A DNA stretch of 45,591 bases. It comes from a virus. The DNA lies in the IMG/VR virus record IMGVR_UViG_3300021247_000425, positions 1 through 45,591 of that record; one strand, 5' to 3'. The translations under genes were made by a program, and so were the position numbers. This document shows positions 3,389 through 44,092 of this stretch, piece after piece (the stretch's first letter is position 1; every line of letters starts with the position of its first letter). Under the pieces are notes generated by a model that was not told the origin of the DNA, did no database searches, and worked only from the letters and a program-made list of their open reading frames with translations.

Positions 3389-3478
3389 ATGAAACTCCCA
3401 AGTACAGAAGAATTTAACTTCAAAGATTGCACCATCGCTGGCGATGAGTGCTGGCTTATCATGCGATTCATTTTTTAA
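3389..3478 (+). pseudogene. 5' fragment of an RNA-ligase-like gene cut by a homing endonuclease
   Basis: A 29-codon frame starting MKLPSTEEFNFKDC and continuing GDECWLI, then ending abruptly at the 3' end of the convergent endonuclease gene. The stretch GDECWLI resembles the N-terminal strand of Rnl1-type RNA ligases (compare NMVLITP in the ligase at 4146). I infer that it is the remnant of a ligase gene whose body was displaced when the endonuclease inserted. It could instead be an unrelated short gene. Confidence 0.4.
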
Positions 3479-4106
3479 ATTCCCATCTAAAACCAAAAGC
3501 GGTTTTCATCCGAATCCCCTTAATTGCCTTTGATATATCACCAGTTCTATTTTTACCATTACTCAAAAAATTAGTAGCATCTTTTATGGAATCCCATTCT
3601 GCAATAATTTCGTCGTTCGCAGGGTTTATTTGTAATATTGGTTTTTTAGTCTTTTTTCTTATTTTTTCTATTGATTCTTGTGATATTTTTCTACCTTTGA
3701 AAATTTTAGATAACTTTTCTCTTGTTTTGGAGCTTACGACTTTTCCCCTATGGGTATCACCTATTTTTTTCTTGGATTCTTCTGTGTGTTTCATACCAGT
3801 CAAATCCAGCCCCCTTTTACAAACATTGTATCCGCTCGGAACTAGAGAATTAAATTTGATTATTAACTGCTCTTCTAAATTTAATAGATCAATTTTTTTA
3901 AAATTTGGTAAATATTCGACATAAACTTCAAAATTTTCATCCCCGTAACGATCCAAAGCTTTACCTATTACTTGATATCTCTCTTTTTTATAGCGGCGCA
4001 ACCTTTTTTTAATACTTACAGATTCACCTACATAATATTTACCATTTACTAAGCATTTTATAACGTATATCCCAGGCACGTCTTCGAATTTATCAAATAT
4101 CTTCAT
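3468..4106 (-). CDS. GIY-YIG homing endonuclease with NUMOD repeats, 212 aa
   Basis: The N-terminus has the GIY (residues 12-14) and YVG (25-27) strands of GIY-YIG nucleases, followed by Arg-rich RLRRYKK and a later NLEEQLI helix supplying the catalytic Glu. After it come NUMOD3-like repeats (GMKHTEESKKKIGDTHRGK and a second copy) and a C-terminal NUMOD1/IENR1-type DNA-binding unit ending GFRWEFKK. This is the architecture of free-standing phage homing endonucleases, which nick and copy themselves into related genomes. It is one of only four minus-strand genes and lies between an RNA-ligase-like fragment and an intact RNA ligase. Confidence 0.88.
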   Translation of the reverse strand: MKIFDKFEDVPGIYVIKCLVNGKYYVGESVSIKKRLRRYKKERYQVIGKALDRYGDENFEVYVEYLPNFKKIDLLNLEEQLIIKFNSLVPSGYNVCKRGLDLTGMKHTEESKKKIGDTHRGKVVSSKTREKLSKIFKGRKISQESIEKIRKKTKKPILQINPANDEIIAEWDSIKDATNFLSNGKNRTGDISKAIKGIRMKTAFGFRWEFKK

Positions 4107-4145: not shown

Positions 4146-5243
4146 ATGAAAAATACTTTAAATTTTTATAGAAATCTTCCAGAAGGGTTTGTAGCGAAGA
4201 GGAGAACCATGTTCGGCAAGAATATGGTGCTAATCACCCCTACGGATATTAAGACAAAATGGTGCGAAAAAACTGAATTTTTTCGCAGTTGTCTATTTGA
4301 CGAGGACACTGGTAAAATTTATAGCTTAGGTTTCAAAAAATTTAAAAATTGGGGCGAAGACCCAGAATTTCAACCGTGGGATCATTCTTGGGAGTTTGAG
4401 GCTCGTTACAAAGTAGATGGGTCACTGCTTTGTATATCAAAAATTGATGGTAATATCTTGATGCGAACAAGGGGTGTGTTTGACGCGAGAGAACATGAGA
4501 CTGGTGACGAATTGGACGGATTTATTGAAAAGTATCCGCTTCTTTACGAAAACGAATTTATTAATTCTGAAAATTATACCATTTTATGCGAACACACAAC
4601 TCCGAAAAGAATTATCGTTTTGCGTGAAAGCGATGAACCAAAATTGACTCTTTTGGGCATTATTTGTCATAAGACAGGGCAATATGTCTCACAATGCGTT
4701 TTGGATGGTTTTGCGCAGCGAATTGGAATTGATCGACCTCAAAAATATATTTATAAAAATATCGCAGATTGTATTGCCGATGTTGAAGCGTGGAGAGGGA
4801 AGGAGGGGGTTGTTGCTTACTCTCCTGACGGTCAGACATTGAAAAAATTTAAAAGTAGTCATTATCTTTCACTCCATAAATTATCGTTTGGTTTGAGAGG
4901 GTTGGACAATGTTTTAGATTTGTTTGTCGAGTCTCCAAGATTTTTGGATTATCAAGATTTTTATAATTATGTGTTGGAGTCTCTGGACTTCGAAATAGCA
5001 GAAAAAATTAAAGATGAAGCGCGTCAAATCACCGATGCTTATGCAAAATTTGTGAAAGGTGTTGAGAAAATGCGTGAACGGATGGAGTTCATTCGTAATT
5101 ATGCTACTCGAAAAGAGCAAGCTGCGGCGATTCAAGAAGAGTTCACGGGATGGAAAACGTCGATTGCGTTCCTACTTCTTGACAATCGAGAAATTGATGA
5201 TAAAGTCGTGCGTAAGGCAATGGAGAAAATATTAGAATTATGA
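4146..5243 (+). CDS. T4 RNA ligase 1-like ligase, 365 aa
   Basis: ATP-dependent RNA ligase. Nucleotidyltransferase motif I is KVDGS (Lys89 would carry the AMP), a motif Ia/III-like series follows (RTRG; ILCEHTTPKRIIVL), motif IV is EGVVAY and motif V is LKKFKSSHYLSLHK. The length is close to that of T4 Rnl1 (374 aa). Such enzymes reseal tRNAs cut by host anticodon nucleases. The gene overlaps the ATP-grasp gene by 4 bases, suggesting joint function. No motif promoter lies directly upstream, where the homing endonuclease has inserted; the start is ATG 4146 with only a weak upstream context (TTAGAATG). Confidence 0.85.
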   Translation: MKNTLNFYRNLPEGFVAKRRTMFGKNMVLITPTDIKTKWCEKTEFFRSCLFDEDTGKIYSLGFKKFKNWGEDPEFQPWDHSWEFEARYKVDGSLLCISKIDGNILMRTRGVFDAREHETGDELDGFIEKYPLLYENEFINSENYTILCEHTTPKRIIVLRESDEPKLTLLGIICHKTGQYVSQCVLDGFAQRIGIDRPQKYIYKNIADCIADVEAWRGKEGVVAYSPDGQTLKKFKSSHYLSLHKLSFGLRGLDNVLDLFVESPRFLDYQDFYNYVLESLDFEIAEKIKDEARQITDAYAKFVKGVEKMRERMEFIRNYATRKEQAAAIQEEFTGWKTSIAFLLLDNREIDDKVVRKAMEKILEL

Positions 5244-22394: not shown

Positions 22395-22865
22395 ATGAAG
22401 AAACTACTCCTCCTATTGCTTAGTGCAATTACATGTCAGGCAGCTACAATCGCAACAAATGTTGTGCATAGCAGCGTAAGTCTCGGATCAGATGGTCTGT
22501 ATAGTTATAGCTATCAAATTCGACCGAGTGATGTTGATCGTCGTGATCTTTCATATTTTGAGGTTTTTCATTGCGAAGAGGCTCAAATTATGAATCCAGA
22601 AGCGACAGTTCGTTTCAAACTTGAAGAAAAGTCATATAGCATTAAATGGGATTCCATTCAGGGCAATAATAATAACCAGCTTATTACATTCACTCTTAAA
22701 TCAAATATGATGCCAAGCGAAAATGGTAGACTTGAGTTTAAGATTGCAAATAAAACATGGACTCAAAATAATGTGATCACTCCTGGATGCACTGCAATTC
22801 CAGAAACGAGTTCTGTATTGCTTGGTTTAATTGGTTGCGGCGTATTTCTTAGACGCAGACGATGA
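22395..22865 (+). CDS. Secreted protein with PEP-CTERM-like sorting signal, 156 aa
   Basis: Begins with a signal peptide (MKKLLLLLLSAITCQAA). The C-terminus has IPETSSVLLGLIGCGVF followed by LRRRR, the arrangement of PEP-CTERM signals: a Pro-Glu-x-Ser motif, a membrane helix and a basic end. In the host these are cut and anchored by an exosortase. The middle is Ser/Asn/Thr-rich with no recognised domain. PEP-CTERM genes are rarely phage-borne and point to a host with this system. The stop overlaps the next start (ATGA). Confidence 0.78.
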   Translation: MKKLLLLLLSAITCQAATIATNVVHSSVSLGSDGLYSYSYQIRPSDVDRRDLSYFEVFHCEEAQIMNPEATVRFKLEEKSYSIKWDSIQGNNNNQLITFTLKSNMMPSENGRLEFKIANKTWTQNNVITPGCTAIPETSSVLLGLIGCGVFLRRRR

Positions 22866-23143
22866 CACCGTTCTTAAAAATCTTTAAAGCATTGTTTACA
22901 ATCTTTTATTTGCAGAACTTTCCGCTTGATGAGCAAGAGATTGTTCACGACTATAGCGCAAAGTCTGCAAAAGATTGTGAACTTATTATTGATCCAAAAG
23001 ACGCTATCTATTTAGAGGCACCTGACTTTATGAATAGACAGGATGCCTTTATACTCCCTCCTACTTATGTCCCAACTCATGTCCCTACGTCAGACATATC
23101 CCCTGCGACAGCCAATCGTATCAAACAAAGGATTAATCATTAA
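22862..23143 (+). CDS. Possible membrane-anchored protein, 93 aa
   Basis: Hydrophobic N-terminal stretch (FLKIFKALFTIFYLQNF) that may be a signal anchor, then an acidic and Pro/Thr-rich tail. No family recognised. It overlaps the PEP-CTERM gene (ATGA) and the acyl carrier frame downstream. Confidence 0.5.
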   Translation: MTPFLKIFKALFTIFYLQNFPLDEQEIVHDYSAKSAKDCELIIDPKDAIYLEAPDFMNRQDAFILPPTYVPTHVPTSDISPATANRIKQRINH

Positions 23144-23381
23144 AGTTATTTCTGAAAAACTGCATCTATCTCAAATAAATGAAAACGATTCTTTAGATTC
23201 TTTGGGTGTAGATAGTCTTGATGTCGTAGAAATACAGTTATCGCTTGAATATTTCTTTGGAAATTTTATTGACAACATAAATCTTTCTGATACAGTTAAC
23301 GACATCGAAAGCAAAATATATGAACGAACTACAAACAAAAGTAATAGCATGGCTGGAAAGTGCAGCACAGAAGATTGGTGA
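23079..23381 (+). CDS. Acyl carrier protein-like, ~100 aa
   Basis: Contains the 4'-phosphopantetheine attachment motif GVDSLDVVEI in the context NDSLDSLGVDSLDVVEIQLSLEYFFG, with helix I (IIKVISEKLHL) before and helix III/IV (NDIESKI) after it. This is the standard acyl carrier fold, which tethers acyl or amino-acyl groups. The true start is uncertain: ATG 23079 is chosen because ACP needs only about 75-80 residues, but ATG 23043 or 23067 are possible. It overlaps the frames on both sides. ACPs are uncommon in phages. Confidence 0.7.
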   Translation: MSLRQTYPLRQPIVSNKGLIIKVISEKLHLSQINENDSLDSLGVDSLDVVEIQLSLEYFFGNFIDNINLSDTVNDIESKIYERTTNKSNSMAGKCSTEDW

Positions 23382-23700
23382 ATTTGCCTCGAAAGAAGTG
23401 CCGCCATTTATCCACGAATATTTGCAATGGAAATTCTTTGAAGCATGCTACAATGCAACACTGCCAATTATCGCTTTGCTTATTAGCTCTTATGTGTTGA
23501 ACATAGGCATTAAGCTTATGAAATCTGAAAAAAATCACGGCGGCGTTGAAATAATTCCACTTACACTTGGCATCGCGGGAACTATAATTTCACTTATGGC
23601 TGTATTTACCGTATCATTCACCAGTATCAAAACAGCGGTGCAAATTAAAATCGCACCAAAAGTATACCTCATCGAACGAGCTTCTGAACTTATCAAATAA
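23320..23700 (+). CDS. Membrane protein with two helices, 126 aa
   Basis: An amphipathic N-terminal third (about 1-43), then hydrophobic helices at about 44-66 and 77-103. It could be a holin or another inner-membrane component; its position after RlpA-like, PEP-CTERM and ACP genes makes an envelope role likely. It overlaps the ACP by 62 bases, which is unusual and suggests one of the two ends needs checking. Confidence 0.55.
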   Translation: MNELQTKVIAWLESAAQKIGEFASKEVPPFIHEYLQWKFFEACYNATLPIIALLISSYVLNIGIKLMKSEKNHGGVEIIPLTLGIAGTIISLMAVFTVSFTSIKTAVQIKIAPKVYLIERASELIK

Positions 23701-23716
23701 AAAACTAGAATACAAT
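23697..23716 (+). promoter_or_regulatory. Motif promoter for 23724
   Basis: ATAAAAAACTAGAATACAAT; gap to ATG 23724 is 7 bases. Confidence 0.8.
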
Positions 23717-23723
23717 AACACAT

Positions 23724-23894
23724 ATGGCAAACAAAAACACACGACAAGCTAAAGCTGCGGGATTCGCAAGTAAGAAAGACCAAAACAACAACGGCACTCG
23801 TATTTTCGAGGGTAAAGTATGTGATACCTCTTGGGATGCACCTGAGAGTAAACACAAAAAGCGCAAGGTGTATCAGCGCATCAAGCCTGAGTAA
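23724..23894 (+). CDS. Small basic protein, 56 aa
   Basis: Lys/Arg/Gln-rich protein (MANKNTRQAKAAGFASKKDQ at the start, KHKKRKVYQRIKPE at the end), likely RNA- or DNA-binding by composition. It has its own motif promoter and is followed directly by a candidate structured RNA, so it may be its partner protein. Confidence 0.6.
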   Translation: MANKNTRQAKAAGFASKKDQNNNGTRIFEGKVCDTSWDAPESKHKKRKVYQRIKPE

Positions 23895-23900
23895 AAAGCT

Positions 23901-24092
23901 TTCGCTTCGGCAGTATCAAAACGCTTGCCAGACCCCCGCTCTACTATTCACTTAGCATCGGGACTGGCGGGATCGAGACATGGAGCCTTCGGGTGCGCGG
24001 ATAAAGTCAGTAATGACAGGCAGTAATTCCATTCTCCCTAGAAACTCGGATATTGAAAAGGTAGTGCGCAGACCGTTCCGAAGCGAATTTTT
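23901..24092 (+). ncRNA. Candidate structured RNA, ~190 nt
   Basis: The gap between two genes is markedly GC-richer than its surroundings and is closed by a perfect 10-bp helix, TTCGCTTCGG (23901-23910) with CCGAAGCGAA (24078-24087), followed by TTTTT. Inside are GCCAG/CTGGC, CCCGC/GCGGG, a GCC-TTCG-GGT hairpin, a GTCA-GTAA-TGAC hairpin and a TGCGC/GCGCA pair. It resembles an independently folding RNA with a terminator-like end. It is not tRNA, tmRNA or a known intron that I recognise. Probably transcribed from the promoter at 23697. Confidence 0.55.
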
Positions 24093-24097
24093 AATCA

Positions 24098-24117
24098 ATA
24101 AAAAACTAGAATACAAT
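24098..24117 (+). promoter_or_regulatory. Motif promoter for 24124
   Basis: AATAAAAAACTAGAATACAAT region; -10 TACAAT, 6 bases before ATG 24124; right after the structured RNA. Confidence 0.78.
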
Positions 24118-24123
24118 CGAGAC

Positions 24124-24330
24124 ATGCAAAAATACACAATCATTTGGGAAGATCGTTGGATGCGAGGCTCACACCAGCATTGCATCACAAAAAGAACATG
24201 GGTGGAAGCTGAGAATATTCATGATGTGATGGTAGAGTATGGTGAATACGCTCGCTTCATCTTCGAAGGTCATCAATTGTCGATTGGTGAAGAATTGCGT
24301 CCAGAAGAAATCGAAATTATTAAAAAATAA
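24124..24330 (+). CDS. Hypothetical protein, 68 aa
   Basis: Aromatic/charged small protein with a WEDRWMRGSHQHCI start and an acidic helical end. The longer frame beginning upstream reads through the structured RNA and promoter and is not real. Short intergenic gap (2 bases) to the next gene. Confidence 0.55.
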   Translation: MQKYTIIWEDRWMRGSHQHCITKRTWVEAENIHDVMVEYGEYARFIFEGHQLSIGEELRPEEIEIIKK

Positions 24331-25014: not shown

Positions 25015-25305
25015 ATGTTCAATATACCTAGAATTGTAATTGGGTTTTTCTTATTCAATCTTGGATTTCTCATTCCAGTAGTAGGGATATTCCCTATGCT
25101 CATTGGTGGATATTTCCTGTCACGATTGATTGCGGAAGAATACGGTATTGCCATATTCTTTTTCATTGGAGTATCACTACTGATACCGTCATACTACATG
25201 ATAGTTCCAGTATTTGAACAAATTGGATGGGAATATGGTAAAGTGATCAGATATACGATGTGTTTGATCGCATCAGTTATGACATGGCTATCAGTTGGAA
25301 AATAA
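25015..25305 (+). CDS. Multi-helix membrane protein, 96 aa
   Basis: Three hydrophobic segments can be seen (about 6-35, 45-62, 78-92). ATG 25015 comes one base after the upstream stop; ATG 24997 is an alternative inside that gene. Function unknown; with the previous gene it forms a membrane pair. Confidence 0.55.
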   Translation: MFNIPRIVIGFFLFNLGFLIPVVGIFPMLIGGYFLSRLIAEEYGIAIFFFIGVSLLIPSYYMIVPVFEQIGWEYGKVIRYTMCLIASVMTWLSVGK

Positions 25306-25319
25306 TTACTAAATTAAAT

Positions 25320-25826
25320 ATGACAATCGCACAACAATTAAAAATTAAAGACTTCCCTTTTGAAATCAAAGATTCCAATGGTAATTGTATTTACTATGAG
25401 AATTCCCATGGATATTGGGAAAAACATGAATACGATGCCAATGGTAAATTGATTTACTCTGAAACTTCTGATGGACATTGGGAAAAACGTGAATACGATA
25501 TCTATAATAATCTGATTTACTTTGAGAATTCCTTTGGACATTGGGAAAAACGTGAATGGGATGCCAATGGTAATCGGATTTACTTTGAGGATTCCTCTGG
25601 ATATTGGCTAAAACAAGAATACGATATCTATAATAATCTGATTTACTTTGAGAATTCCTTTGGACATTGGGAAAAACGTGAATGGGATGCCAATGGTAAT
25701 CGGATTTACTATGAGAACTCTAGGGGAATAATTATAGACAATCGCCCTAAGACAGAAGTTCAGAAAGCAATCGAACTCCTCACTAAAGAGGGATTGATTG
25801 CGGATGGTAAGATTCTAAAAAACTAA
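25320..25826 (+). CDS. YD-like repeat family protein, 6 units, 168 aa
   Basis: Longest family member. Units 3-4 and 5-6 are near-identical because of a recent 126-base tandem duplication (25491 and 25617 onward). Some units carry the variant YDIYNNLIYF instead of YDxNGxxIYY. Head and tail are standard. No motif promoter directly upstream (context ACTAAATTAAATATG), so it may be co-transcribed with the membrane proteins. ATG 25320 is used because the MTIAQQ head begins there. Confidence 0.75.
   Translation: MTIAQQLKIKDFPFEIKDSNGNCIYYENSHGYWEKHEYDANGKLIYSETSDGHWEKREYDIYNNLIYFENSFGHWEKREWDANGNRIYFEDSSGYWLKQEYDIYNNLIYFENSFGHWEKREWDANGNRIYYENSRGIIIDNRPKTEVQKAIELLTKEGLIADGKILKN
25491..25710 (+). 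repeat. 126-base tandem duplication inside the repeat gene
   Basis: The 94 bases from 25491 and from 25617 are identical, offset by exactly two 63-base units. This is strong evidence of unequal recombination or slippage very recently. Confidence 0.85.
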
Positions 25827-25834
25827 AATACCAT
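25815..25834 (+). promoter_or_regulatory. Motif promoter for 25841
   Basis: CTAAAAAACTAAAATACCAT; -10 TACCAT, weaker than usual; 6 bases before ATG. Confidence 0.65.
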
Positions 25835-25840
25835 CATAAC

Positions 25841-26284
25841 ATGACAATCGCACAACAATTAAAAATTAAAGAATTTCCTTTTGCAATCGATGATAAAAAT
25901 GGTAGAGAGATTTACTATGAGGATTCCTCTGGATTTTGGGAAAAATATGAATACGATATCTATAATAATCTGATTTACTTTGAGGATTCCTCTGGATATT
26001 GGGAAAAACGTGAATACGATACCAATGGTAATCGGATTTACTTTGAGGATTCCTCTGGATATTGGAGAAAACGTGAATACGATACCAATGGTAATTGTAT
26101 TTACTATGAGAATTCCAATGGATATTGGGTAAAACGTGAATGGAATGCCAATGGTAATTGTATTTACTTTGAGGATTCCTCTGGAGCAACCGAAGACAAT
26201 CGCCCTAAGACAGAAGTTCAGAAAGCAATCGAACTCCTCACGAAAGAGGGATTGATTGCGGATGGTAAGATCCTAAAAAACTAG
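25841..26284 (+). CDS. YD-like repeat family protein, 5 units, 147 aa
   Basis: Standard head and tail with five units, including one IYNN variant shared with the 25320 copy. The first unit begins DKNGREIYY. It lies in the second cluster, separated by promoter plus 6 bases from both neighbours. Confidence 0.75.
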   Translation: MTIAQQLKIKEFPFAIDDKNGREIYYEDSSGFWEKYEYDIYNNLIYFEDSSGYWEKREYDTNGNRIYFEDSSGYWRKREYDTNGNCIYYENSNGYWVKREWNANGNCIYFEDSSGATEDNRPKTEVQKAIELLTKEGLIADGKILKN

Positions 26285-26292
26285 AATACAAT
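26273..26292 (+). promoter_or_regulatory. Motif promoter for 26299
   Basis: CTAAAAAACTAGAATACAAT; 6 bases (CACAAT) before ATG. Confidence 0.8.
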
Positions 26293-26298
26293 CACAAT

Positions 26299-26571
26299 AT
26301 GACAATTGCACAGCAATTAAAAATTAAAGACTTTCCTTTTGTAATCAAAGATACCAATGGTAGAGAGATTTACTGTGAGAATTCCAATGGATATTGGGAA
26401 AAAGGTGAATACAATACCAATGGTAAAGTGATTTACTATGAGAATTCCAATGGATTTTGGGTAAAATGTGAATACGATGCCAATGGTAATTGTATTTACT
26501 TTGAGGATTCGAAGGGACAATCATTGACAATCGTCCTAAGACTGATGTCCAACAAGCAATTGAGATCCTAA
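26299..26571 (+). pseudogene. Decaying YD-like repeat copy, 90 aa frame
   Basis: Three units are normal, then one base is missing near GAAGGGACAATC and the reading frame shifts, replacing the conserved tail by QSLTIVLRLMSNKQLRS. In addition about 60 bases that would encode the tail helix are deleted, joining GCAATTGA directly to GATCCTAAAAAAC. The promoter is intact, so it may still be transcribed. Confidence 0.7.
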
Positions 26572-26587
26572 AAAACTAAAACACAAT

Positions 26588-27031
26588 ATGACAATCGCAC
26601 AACAATTAAAAATTAAAGACTTCCCTTTTGAAATCAAGGATTCCAATGGTAAATTGATTTACTATGAGGCTTTCGATGGATATTGGGTAAAATATGAATA
26701 CGATGCCAATGGTAAATTGATTTACTATGAGGCTTCCCATGGATATTGGGAAAAACGTGAATACGATGCCAATGGCGAAGAGATTTACTGTGAAAATTCT
26801 GATGGATATTGGGAAAAACGTGAATACGATGCCAATGGTAATCGGATTTACTTTGAGACTTCCTCTGGATATTGGTCAAAACGTGAATGGGATACCAACG
26901 GTAATCGGATTTACTATGAGAATTCCAATGGAGTAATCGAAGACAATCGCCCTAAGACTGATGTCCAACAAGCAATCGAACTCCTCACGAAAGAGGGATT
27001 GATTGTGGATGGTAAGATCCTAAAAAACTAG
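26588..27031 (+). CDS. YD-like repeat family protein, 5 units, 147 aa
   Basis: Intact head, five units and tail. Its upstream motif is damaged: CTAAAAAACTAAAACACAAT runs straight into ATG 26588, with the TACAAT plus 6-base spacer lost. It may be silent or poorly expressed. The ORF itself shows no sign of decay. Confidence 0.72.
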   Translation: MTIAQQLKIKDFPFEIKDSNGKLIYYEAFDGYWVKYEYDANGKLIYYEASHGYWEKREYDANGEEIYCENSDGYWEKREYDANGNRIYFETSSGYWSKREWDTNGNRIYYENSNGVIEDNRPKTDVQQAIELLTKEGLIVDGKILKN

Positions 27032-34948: not shown

Positions 34949-35289
34949 AAAGACTTACTAAAGAAGAAATCGAACGATTTGTCACTGCTTCCACAAATAA
35001 GGATGCTGTATGGAATTTCCTTGGCACTGTTCACCATTGCGGTAATTATGTCAATGCTCTTGCCAATCTGTTAGACGATGCGGCATTGTATGATTGGAAT
35101 CATGACACTGTGATGGCAATCTATGAGGGATTGAAATACGCAAGTGAATTACCCACAGCACGAGGCTGTGGCTTCAGTCTAACTAACTTAGACTTCTTTT
35201 TAGACGCTTCACAGACAGCAGTTTCGCAAGAAGTATTACTACCTCCTACCAGAGCTTCCATCTCCACATCTGTAATCGCCAATCCCTGA
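34945..35289 (+). pseudogene. Small gene interrupted by a tnpB element
   Basis: The first 66 codons (MKRLTKEEIERFVTASTNK...) are the original gene; from 35144 the frame reads into the antisense of the tnpB element and ends at 35289. Removing 35144-36399 joins the gene to GTAAATGGTAA and gives a 69-aa protein ending ASKW. The current C-terminus (48 residues) is therefore foreign. Confidence 0.7.
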
Positions 35290-36353
35290 CGATGAATATT
35301 CTTTGCGGCATTAACATCCCTTTGGTGATGAGAACCACACTTAGGACATTTCCAATGCCTCACTGACAAAGGTAGCTTATCAATAATATAATCACAAGAA
35401 GAGCATGTTTTGGATGATGGATAGAATCTATCTATCTTTATCACTTTCTTACCATACCATTGCGCTTTATATTCTAGCATAGATACAAAAGAACTCCAAG
35501 AACTATCAGATATACTATAAGATAATTTACTATTTCTTACCATATTCTTGACAGCCAAAGATTCCAAAGAAATCATATCATACCGATTGATAAGATCAGT
35601 GGATAGCTTGTGTTGGAAATCCTTACGAGAATTGGTTATCTTCTCATGGATTCTTGCTATCTTATTTCTTTGTCTTTTGTATCTATTACTACCTTTCGTT
35701 TTCCTACTTAAATGTTTTTGAGCTTTTGAGAGCTTCTGTTTGAGATTTCTATTAAAATTAGGATTCTTTACTTTCCCACCATCTGAAGTTACTATGAAAT
35801 CGTTAATACCTAAATCAATACCTACTGTCTTGCCTGTCTTCTCTTTGATCTTCTTAGGAACTTCCATTAAGATACTGGCAAAATATTTATTAGTGGGTGT
35901 TTTAGAAATTGTTACGGATTTAATCTCGCCTTCTAACTTACGATGTAATATAATGGGAATACCATCTTTAAACTTTGGAATGTGAATCCTATTATCTTTT
36001 AAGGATATGTGTTGGGGGACTCTAAAAGATTGGTTTTCTGATTTCTTTTTAAACTTTGGAAATTTAGATTTCTTACGGAAGAAATTTCCATAAGCAGTCT
36101 CAAGATTCATAAGAGATTGTTGTAAGGTTTGGGAATTGACTTCTTTAAGCCATTGGTAATCACCCTTTTTCATGGCAATCACATTACCAGCGCATTGATT
36201 ATAATTCAATGTCTTTCCATTGTTTAAATAATGATTTTGTTTTTCTTTTAGAAAATGATTATATATGAATCGGGAGCATCCAAAGTGCTTTCCAAGCAAT
36301 TCCTTTTGAGAATCCAAAGGATAGATTCTGAATTTGAAGGCTTGATATGTAAT
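35121..36353 (-). CDS. tnpB: TnpB RNA-guided nuclease, ~410 aa
   Basis: RuvC-like nuclease of IS200/IS605 elements, ancestor of Cas12. Visible blocks: N-terminal TYQAFKFRIYP and FGCSRFIYN, RuvC-I VGIDLGINDFIV (Asp), RuvC-II SLESLAV (Glu), zinc ribbon CSSC...CPKC and RuvC-III RDVNAAKNI (Asp), so the active site is complete. TTG 36317 cannot be the real start, because the conserved TYQAFKFRIYP lies before it; ATT 36353 is the likely start. The stop lies beyond the element end, so the last residues come from flanking DNA. Confidence 0.88.
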   Translation of the reverse strand: MTYQAFKFRIYPLDSQKELLGKHFGCSRFIYNHFLKEKQNHYLNNGKTLNYNQCAGNVIAMKKGDYQWLKEVNSQTLQQSLMNLETAYGNFFRKKSKFPKFKKKSENQSFRVPQHISLKDNRIHIPKFKDGIPIILHRKLEGEIKSVTISKTPTNKYFASILMEVPKKIKEKTGKTVGIDLGINDFIVTSDGGKVKNPNFNRNLKQKLSKAQKHLSRKTKGSNRYKRQRNKIARIHEKITNSRKDFQHKLSTDLINRYDMISLESLAVKNMVRNSKLSYSISDSSWSSFVSMLEYKAQWYGKKVIKIDRFYPSSKTCSSCDYIIDKLPLSVRHWKCPKCGSHHQRDVNAAKNIHRQGLAITDVEMEALVGGSNTSCETAVCEASKKKSKLVRLKPQPRAVGNSLAYFNPS

Positions 36354-37347: not shown

Positions 37348-38565
37348 ATTACATATCAAGCCTTCAAATTTAGAATATATCCTTTGGATTCTCAAAAGGA
37401 ATTGCTTGAGAAGCATTTCGGATGTTCAAGATTCATTTATAATCATTTTTTGAAAGAGAAACAAGAAGAATATCTATCTTCTGGTAAGGGATTAACATAT
37501 AGTAAGTGTTGTAAGATTCTAAAGGAATTAAAAGATAATGAATTAGAATGGTTGAAAGAAGTCAATTCACAGACCTTACAACAATCAATTCAAAATCTTG
37601 AGACTGCTTATGGAAACTTCTTTCGTAAGAAATCCAAATTTCCAAAGTTTAAAAAGAAATCAGAAAACCAATCCTTTAGGGTTCCCCAACACATTTCTTT
37701 GAAAGACAATAGACTCTTCATTCCAAAATTCAAAGATGGAATACCCATTGTATCACATCGTAAGTTAGAAGGTGAGATAAAGAGTGTTACGATTTCTAAA
37801 ACACCTACTGATAAATATTTTGCTAGTATCTTAATGGAAGTTCCTAAAAAGTCTAAATCAAAGACTGGCAAGACCGTAGGAATTGATTTAGGTATTATAG
37901 ATTTCATAGTAACAAGCGATGGGGAGAAAATCAAGAATCCAAATTTTTCAAGATCATTAAAAGATAAATTAAAGACTCATCAAAAACATTTAAGTAGGAA
38001 AACGAAAGGTAGTAATAGATACAAAAGACAAAGAAAGAAAGTGGTAAGAATCCATGAGAAGATAACCAATTCTCGAAAGGATTTTCAACACAAATTAAGC
38101 ACTCGTTTGATTAATGAGTATGATATGATTTCTTTGGAATCTTTAGCTGTTAAGAATATGATACGGAATAGGTGCTTATCCTATTCCATATCTGATAGCT
38201 CTTGGAGTTCTTTTGTATCCATGTTGGAATATAAAGCCAGTTGGTATGGGAAGGAGATTAAGAAAATCGATAGATGGTATCCTAGTTCCAAGACATGCTC
38301 AAGCTGTGATTATATTATTGATAAGCTACCTTTGTCAGTGCGTAAGTGGCAATGTCCCGAGTGTGGTTCTCATCACCAAAGGGATGTCAATGCTGCTAAA
38401 AATATACATCGTCAGGGATTGACGATTACAGATGTGGAGATGGAAGCTCTGGTAAGAGGTAGTAATACTTCTCACGAAACTACTGTCTGTGAAGCGTCTA
38501 AAAAGAAGTCTATATCAGATCGAAAGATTTATAGACTGAAGCCGCTGGGTCTTGCCCAGCGGTAG
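37348..38565 (+). CDS. tnpB: TnpB RNA-guided nuclease, ~405 aa
   Basis: Close relative of the copy at 35121 (most residues identical). RuvC-I VGIDLGIIDFIV, RuvC-II SLESLAV, zinc ribbon CSSC...CPEC and RuvC-III RDVNAAKNI are intact. As in the other copy, the conserved TYQAFKFRIYP precedes TTG 37384, so ATT 37348 is the probable start. The stop lies at the right-end hairpin. Its guide RNA is expected from the 3' end of the gene through the right end. Confidence 0.9.
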   Translation: MTYQAFKFRIYPLDSQKELLEKHFGCSRFIYNHFLKEKQEEYLSSGKGLTYSKCCKILKELKDNELEWLKEVNSQTLQQSIQNLETAYGNFFRKKSKFPKFKKKSENQSFRVPQHISLKDNRLFIPKFKDGIPIVSHRKLEGEIKSVTISKTPTDKYFASILMEVPKKSKSKTGKTVGIDLGIIDFIVTSDGEKIKNPNFSRSLKDKLKTHQKHLSRKTKGSNRYKRQRKKVVRIHEKITNSRKDFQHKLSTRLINEYDMISLESLAVKNMIRNRCLSYSISDSSWSSFVSMLEYKASWYGKEIKKIDRWYPSSKTCSSCDYIIDKLPLSVRKWQCPECGSHHQRDVNAAKNIHRQGLTITDVEMEALVRGSNTSHETTVCEASKKKSISDRKIYRLKPLGLAQR

Positions 38566-43077: not shown

Positions 43078-43752
43078 ATGACAAAAACATACGATACCTT
43101 TCTCCCTATCTTCTCTGGATTCTACAATACCATTTGGGATGAATCCGAATCTTGGATGGAATGTGAACTTGATAGTGAAGAGTGTTTCCGTGAACACTAT
43201 CCTGAATTCGATGGTATTCCTTTCGATTTCATTAGAGACAATTTTTGGGATATTGTCGATTGTCGCCAAGGTTTTGAGGGTGTGCTTGATTACATCGTGA
43301 GCGTGTTTCCTCGGTGGTTCAATGGTGAAGTGGGTTCTGATATTATCAAAAACGTCACTTTACAAAAGATCGTTTCCCCTCGTGAATACAATTTCTGTAA
43401 CGATTCTGCTGATGTTTCCATTGAAGTTGATACGGATTTGATTGCCAAGTATCTGCAAGAAAACGGTCATGCTTTCTCTGAGTATCTGAAAAAACGATAC
43501 ACTTCTCGTGATGGGTTCATCTCTCATTATTCTAACGATATTTCAGAATGGGCTGAAGACACTAACGATTTCACCGACTTCTCTGTCAATGGTCATTACT
43601 TGGGCGCGATTCTGGAATTTATTGTGAACGATTCCATTGATGATGCGGAAATGTCATTGTTCTATTCTGCAAATACTCATGAGGGATTCTCTAACAGCGT
43701 GGGAGTCGATACTGCACGATTGGTGGAAAAATGGGAAGCATCGAAAGATTAA
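43078..43752 (+). CDS. Hypothetical protein, 224 aa
   Basis: Acidic soluble protein (DESESWMECELDSEECF near the start), with ISEWAEDTNDFTDFSVNGHY and a C-terminal helical region. Similar in style to large-phage conserved unknowns but no family recognised. It is the largest gene of the last 5 kb. Confidence 0.65.
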   Translation: MTKTYDTFLPIFSGFYNTIWDESESWMECELDSEECFREHYPEFDGIPFDFIRDNFWDIVDCRQGFEGVLDYIVSVFPRWFNGEVGSDIIKNVTLQKIVSPREYNFCNDSADVSIEVDTDLIAKYLQENGHAFSEYLKKRYTSRDGFISHYSNDISEWAEDTNDFTDFSVNGHYLGAILEFIVNDSIDDAEMSLFYSANTHEGFSNSVGVDTARLVEKWEASKD

Positions 43753-43768
43753 AAAACTAGAATACACT
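43749..43768 (+). promoter_or_regulatory. Motif promoter for 43775
   Basis: ATTAAAAAACTAGAATACACT; spacer CATAAC. Confidence 0.8.
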
Positions 43769-43774
43769 CATAAC

Positions 43775-44092
43775 ATGACAATCGCACAGCAATTAAAAAT
43801 TAAAGAATTTCCTTTCGGAATCAAGGATAAGAATAGTAATCAGATTTACTATGAGAATTCCACTGGATATTGGATAAAACGTGAATGGGATGCCAATGGT
43901 AATCGGATTTACTTTGAGGATTCCAATGGATATTGGACAAAACATGAATACGATACCAATGGTAATTGGATTTACTATGAGAATTCCGAAGGAACAATCG
44001 AAGACAAACGTCCCAAGACTGATGTCCAAAAGGCAATCGAACTCCTCACGAAAGAGGGATCGATTGTGGATGGTAAGATTCTAAAAAACTAG
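43775..44092 (+). CDS. YD-like repeat family protein, 3 units, 105 aa
   Basis: Head MTIAQQLKIKEFPFGIK, three units (the first with NSNQIYY) and a tail with EGSIVDGKILKN. ATG 43775 is fixed by the promoter; a longer frame that reads through it is an artefact of the third reading frame of the motif. Confidence 0.75.
   Translation: MTIAQQLKIKEFPFGIKDKNSNQIYYENSTGYWIKREWDANGNRIYFEDSNGYWTKHEYDTNGNWIYYENSEGTIEDKRPKTDVQKAIELLTKEGSIVDGKILKN

Follow-up and report, generated by a model that had tools for sequence, protein, structure and literature searches.

A GC-rich island downstream of a small basic protein gene

The window, by which we mean the whole 45,591-base stretch of IMG/VR record IMGVR_UViG_3300021247_000425, contains an island of distinctive composition, lying past the stop codon of a 56-aa gene (23724–23894) and before the next copy of a repeat, AAAAAACTAGAATACA, at 24100 (Table 1). 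As the original prediction had it, this is a stretch of about 190 GC-rich bases in an AT-rich genome (51.3% G+C vs 36.2% for the whole window), preceded by a gene for a small basic protein, closed by a perfect 10-bp helix (23901–23910 with 24078–24087) and followed by a T-run (24088–24092). Fewer than 0.1% of the window's 191-nt stretches are equally GC-rich, and the richest of them overlaps the island.

The prediction had also found no coding signal here, and had named conserved coding as the result that would count against an RNA. We looked for such coding among the homologues described below and it is absent: no reading frame is kept across the island, and length changes break the frame. 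The small gene upstream changes mainly at codon position 3. Relative to the window copy, the RNA diverges by 3–17% and the small gene by 18–28%, so that the RNA is generally the better conserved, the relatives all being close by this measure. The single-sequence folding energy of the island is ordinary (z = −0.63), for which reason the case for an RNA must rest on comparison; judged in this way, 23901–24087 of the plus strand is a GC-rich, non-coding, structured RNA.

Table 1. Positions of the gene, repeats and RNA elements at the locus
Feature	Position	Strand	Basis or remark
AAAAAACTAGAATACA repeat, putative promoter/leader	23699..23714	+	shortly before small gene's ATG; function inferred
Small basic protein gene, 56 aa, no known family	23724..23894	+	directly upstream of RNA in every RNA-bearing contig
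Structured RNA core P1–P8	23901..24087	+	alignment A4, 14 distinct sequences; pair counts; model R1
P1 5′ strand, 10 bp	23901..23910	+	pairs 24078–24087; 100% paired in 14; 9/10 pairs invariant
P2 5′ strand, 7 bp	23911..23917	+	pairs 24049–24055; C-G to A-U in L036, G-U/G-C elsewhere
P3/P3b/P3c hairpin arm	23927..23968	+	two-sided changes in three pairs
P4 5′ strand	23974..23977	+	pairs 24045–24048; invariant, no covariation
P5/P5b stem around P6 and P7	23980..24032	+	G-C to A-U at 23982/24030 in three sequences
P6 hairpin, UUCG/CGGA stem, invariant GGUGCG loop	23988..24001	+	C-G to U-A in L055, G-C to G-U in L011
P7 hairpin, GNRA tetraloop (GUAA; GCAA in L055)	24006..24017	+	C-G to U-A in L006
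P4 3′ strand	24045..24048	+	pair counts
P2 3′ strand	24049..24055	+	pair counts
P8 hairpin, 3-bp stem, 9-nt loop AG-UGCGCA-G	24060..24074	+	sequence comparison, covariation
Self-complementary hexamer of P8 loop, proposed kissing-loop dimer contact	24065..24070	+	variants across phages
P1 3′ strand	24078..24087	+	pair counts
T-run after P1	24088..24092	+	T-rich but broken in most relatives
Next AAAAAACTAGAATACA repeat	24100..24115	+	before downstream gene 24124–24330

Distribution of the gene–RNA unit

A search with the small protein returned 15 contigs, each with a similar island downstream, and scans with the island sequence together with a protein profile raised the total to 21 other IMG/VR contigs that carry full-length RNA (187–192 nt). 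Every full-length copy is directly preceded by the same 54–56-aa basic protein gene, each searched record holds a single RNA copy, and model R1 recognizes all of the full-length copies searched. Six further viral pattern matches (L060, L061, L063, L064, L065 and L096) proved on reading to contain no such RNA, the one in L065 falling inside a coding gene. In bacterial and archaeal genomes the RNA pattern gave three matches, all rejected by the model, and the small protein gave none.

The statement that the island resembles no known RNA agrees with our searches: at E ≤ 10 the covariance models of Rfam 15 (4227 families) matched neither the window nor L009, and L055 yielded only a 15-bit snoRNA match, far below the gathering score of 90. 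In GenBank phages, BLASTN with two members as queries returned nothing or 26-base chance matches only; the small protein gave no relative there and no match in Pfam or PHROGs. A 184-kb relative carries genes for tail sheath, terminase, a gp32-like protein, a clamp loader and UvsX, and its best virion-protein matches, at 62–66% identity, are to cyanophages and phage HMO-2011; by this gene content it is a T4-like phage. The island is, then, a previously undescribed folded RNA of about 190 bases, common to T4-like phages known only from metagenomes.

The gene neighbourhoods in which the gene–RNA unit is found are of at least two unrelated kinds, and the tree of the RNA disagrees with that of the small gene, which suggests recombination between gene and RNA. 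The unit has tRNA genes immediately before it in L014, L016 and L059, and in L011, L053 and L054 tRNA clusters lie upstream of it. Two fragments, L057 and L058, have the small gene followed directly by another gene and no RNA in the record; by eye, the gene that takes the place of the RNA there, from about 5172, is macro-domain-like.

We also found a natural deletion in L059, where a 57-nt form of the RNA follows the small gene (4238–4300). The interior between the two P2 strands is replaced by CAGTA-GTACTG; P3–P7 are missing, and P1 and the palindromic P8 are kept, the latter with a third palindrome.

A fold supported by paired changes

Alignment A4 comprises 14 distinct RNA sequences, and its RNAalifold consensus was replaced by a hand-refined structure that adds P5 and P6. 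The refined structure has 52 pairs, or 56 with an optional four-pair GGGA/UCCC pseudoknot; with the pseudoknot included, 99.7% of cells across the 14 sequences are paired. P1 closes the fold and leads into P2; then come the P3 arm and P4, which leads to P5/P5b with P6 and P7, and P8 lies after the 3′ strand of P2 and before that of P1. Several nested pairs had been predicted from the single sequence, with covariation among homologues proposed as the check: the homologues do covary with the fold, which is preserved by paired changes. Two-sided changes occur in seven pairs of the 56-pair set, against a shuffle mean of 2.0 (0/500) and 0–1 in slid controls. In addition, conserved stems contain 33 G-U cells, which on the opposite strand would give A-C mismatches; they therefore fix the plus strand as the sense strand, and favor RNA over DNA.

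The support is not uniform. P1, P3c and P4 are nearly invariant and are backed only by complementarity and conservation; because the closing helix barely varies, covariation neither supports nor refutes P1. The pseudoknot (23969–23972 with 24035–24038) is compatible with the alignment and mostly invariant, and we list it as an unproven candidate. Two hairpins had been singled out in the original prediction. The GUAA hairpin (GUCA-GUAA-UGAC) is a true GNRA hairpin, with GCAA in one relative. UUCG is indeed present, but the cUUCGg tetraloop reading gives way to a 4-bp helix, P6 (23988–23991 with 23998–24001), of which, given the substitutions in L055 and L011, UUCG is probably the 5′ strand.

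A self-complementary loop suggestive of an RNA homodimer

The most informative part of the fold, the palindromic P8 hairpin, was absent from the original prediction. Its loop hexamer is UGCGCA in the window, CGUACG in L031 and L055, UACGUA in L059 and CGGACG in L006, and in seven of the 14 distinct sequences the loop has 8 nt with only a 4-nt GCGC palindrome. The six distinct 9-nt P8 hairpins display two-sided changes at all three palindrome pairs, with a covariation score of 0.533 vs 0.306 (0/500); 17 of 18 possible self-pairs are kept, vs a mean of 9.8 under column shuffling (fraction 0.0003), and a cruder test with random transitions puts the chance that two palindromes are kept at 0.04. 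Because inspection first revealed the palindrome, these statistics are post hoc, and we consider the support for its covariation good, not overwhelming.

Another key observation is that the central, adjacent pair of the hexamer switches between CG and UA. Bases so placed are unable to pair within one strand; that they change together speaks for intermolecular pairing, an argument that Kretsch et al. used for OLE and GOLLD (PMC12286853). This pattern strongly suggests that the RNA forms a homodimer through a P8–P8 kissing loop. Covariation of a self-complementary loop, adjacent bases included, is incomplete in the group with 8-nt loops and in L006, where self-pairing would need a tandem G-A mismatch; duplexes with tandem G-A are stable. 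The P8 stem is a weakness for the dimer, being only 3 bp long, and the palindrome switches are not numerous and may owe their spread to recombination, bearing in mind the disagreement between the gene and RNA trees.

The format of the loop recalls the dimerization initiation site (DIS) of HIV-1, whose nine-nucleotide loop holds a six-nucleotide palindrome and three flanking purines (PMC4066764). The 9-nt P8 loop likewise consists of two 5′ bases (purines except in L059), a 6-nt palindrome and one 3′ purine. With a perfect palindrome, this format is found in the window, L005, L031 and L055, and in L059 except for one 5′ U; it is absent in the 8-nt group, and L006 is mismatched. The likeness is one of convergent format only: the genome type is different and the P8 stem is shorter. 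Both the palindromic hairpin and its DIS-like format are new here.

Proposed role and alternative explanations

What the comparison of homologues backs is a conserved non-coding sequence, paired changes in its stems, its identity as a plus-strand RNA, its constant linkage to the small gene and its single copy per searched record. We hypothesize, with a probability of about 0.5, that these features describe a new T4-like phage RNA family of about 190 nt that homodimerizes through P8 and acts as a scaffold for the co-encoded basic protein. The RNA would be made as the 3′ part of the small protein's transcript and probably left as a stable RNA; two such molecules would join through the self-complementary P8 loop, and the dimer would then bind the basic protein to give a small ribonucleoprotein used during infection, by analogy with OLE and its partner OapA. 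That the RNA works with the neighboring protein is the less certain part: the AlphaFold model of the 56-aa protein is poor (mean pLDDT 59), and at this low confidence it lends binding no structural support. The occurrence of the protein without the RNA in the fragments L057 and L058 also counts against this reading. Because the unit often lies beside tRNA genes, the translation machinery is our first guess, made with low confidence, at the target of the ribonucleoprotein. A bolder version, which we offer tentatively, is of a T4-type phage ribonucleoprotein that combines a kissing-loop RNA dimer with a dedicated basic protein and acts on the host, the shortened RNA of L059 being its minimal version.

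The main rival is a cis-acting 3′-UTR element of the small protein's mRNA, serving transcript stabilization or autoregulation by the bound protein. The RNA always begins a few nucleotides past the stop codon of the same gene, the downstream gene varies, and even the reduced version in L059 stays with the gene, all of which such an element would explain. However, the RNA generally shows less divergence than the gene and is over-elaborate for stability alone, the gene occurs without it in L057 and L058, and the trees of the two disagree; we view this explanation as possible but unlikely. A riboswitch or other 5′ leader element was rejected, since the gene downstream differs between phages and there is no constant regulated gene.

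It is doubtful, to a slightly greater degree, that the palindrome is incidental and that the P8 loop instead kisses the invariant GGUGCG loop of P6 within one molecule (UGCG with CGCA). This complementarity is found in 11 of the 14 sequences, including all seven with 8-nt loops, and yet, read in fixed register, it is lost in L006, L031 and L055; the P6 loop, being constant, offers no covariation, and L059, which lacks P6, still has a palindromic loop. An intrinsic transcription terminator made of P1 and the T-run, with a large insert, is very improbable: five T follow P1 in the window, and P1 with T-rich sequence persists in L059, but the ~170 nt in between show conservation and paired changes, no terminator was called on the plus strand, and an unbroken T-run is missing in most relatives, several of which also lack the repeat before the next gene. 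The T-run is no evidence of a working terminator. Finally, that the island is a chance GC-rich stretch or a double-stranded DNA element, for which its ordinary folding energy might speak, is contradicted by the two-sided compensations and the G-U cells and can be virtually dismissed.

Comparison with known RNAs

If the dimer is real, this RNA would work like known homo-oligomeric RNAs while belonging to a new and much shorter family. GOLLD and ROOL are also phage-encoded structured RNAs without a known role, often near tRNA islands, and form homo-oligomers via kissing loops, some of them symmetric (PMC12286853), just as a dimer is proposed here from the sequence. They differ in length (about 660 to over 800 nt) and bear no relation in sequence or structure, there being no Rfam match; no protein partner is known for ROOL. 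OLE RNA shares a palindromic, symmetric and covarying kissing loop, a dimer, and an RNA gene that adjoins a protein gene, and it was through gene adjacency that OLE was linked to OapA (PMC11332333). Unlike the RNA described here, OLE is ~600 nt long, resides in bacterial chromosomes and has a membrane protein as its partner. The family covariance models of GOLLD, ROOL and OLE gave no match, and the full-length RNA falls well short of the size of large ornate RNAs (about 600 nt or more).

The prohead RNA (pRNA) of phi29 is likewise a small phage RNA that multimerizes by loop–loop pairing (PMC7357161); its contacts are made by two different loops complementary to each other rather than by one palindrome, and it is part of the phi29 DNA-packaging motor. 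The nearest equivalent here of such a pair of loops is the P6/P8 complementarity, which lacks covariation. RNAC (139 nt) and RNAD (119 nt) of T4 are likewise small RNAs of a T4-type phage, stable and encoded in its tRNA region (PMC3014915; NC_000866). Model R1 found no match in the T4 region that contains them (69500–74500), and T4 rnaC appears, on our own reading, to end in an element like a tRNA T-arm, which is absent in the new RNA.

A review of post-transcriptional control in T4 states that no trans-acting regulatory T4 RNA had been functionally characterized and that RNAC and RNAD are without a known role (PMC3014915), and known natural RNA homodimers are scarce (PMC7357161). The family matters in that the stable RNAs of T4-type phages are still without known function, and it offers a fold that evolution has tested, a minimal version that occurs in nature, and a candidate protein partner tied to it. 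Compared with the RNA-only oligomers GOLLD, ROOL and OLE, the new RNA is far shorter, and its length allows in vitro transcription, which makes its dimerization directly testable.

Other features of the window

The AAAAAACTAGAATACA repeat is present in 53 copies, all on the plus strand, vs 2.3 expected (e.g., at 23699, 24100 and 24819), and an ATG follows it at one fixed distance in 38 of 51. This strict spacing suggests a putative phage promoter/leader or translation-start signal. The copy that corresponds to 24100 is absent at that place in L006, L007, L008, L055 and others.

Several other genes were recognized by eye. At 22395–22865 lies a secreted-looking protein without a Pfam match, whose PEP-CTERM-like tail (VLLGLIGCGVFLRRRR) is uncommon for a phage and might hint at the host; a frame at 23043–23381 has an acyl-carrier-protein-like stretch (DSLGVDSLDVVEIQ). 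Two ORFs resemble TnpB/OrfB transposases (35121–36317 on the minus strand and 37384–38565 on the plus strand), and one a GIY-YIG homing endonuclease (3468–4106, minus strand). We also noted a paralogous protein array at 25260–27031 and 43637–44092, whose members start with MTIAQQLKIK and contain YWEKREYDANGNRIYYENS repeats; relatives of these proteins occur near the RNA in other phages.
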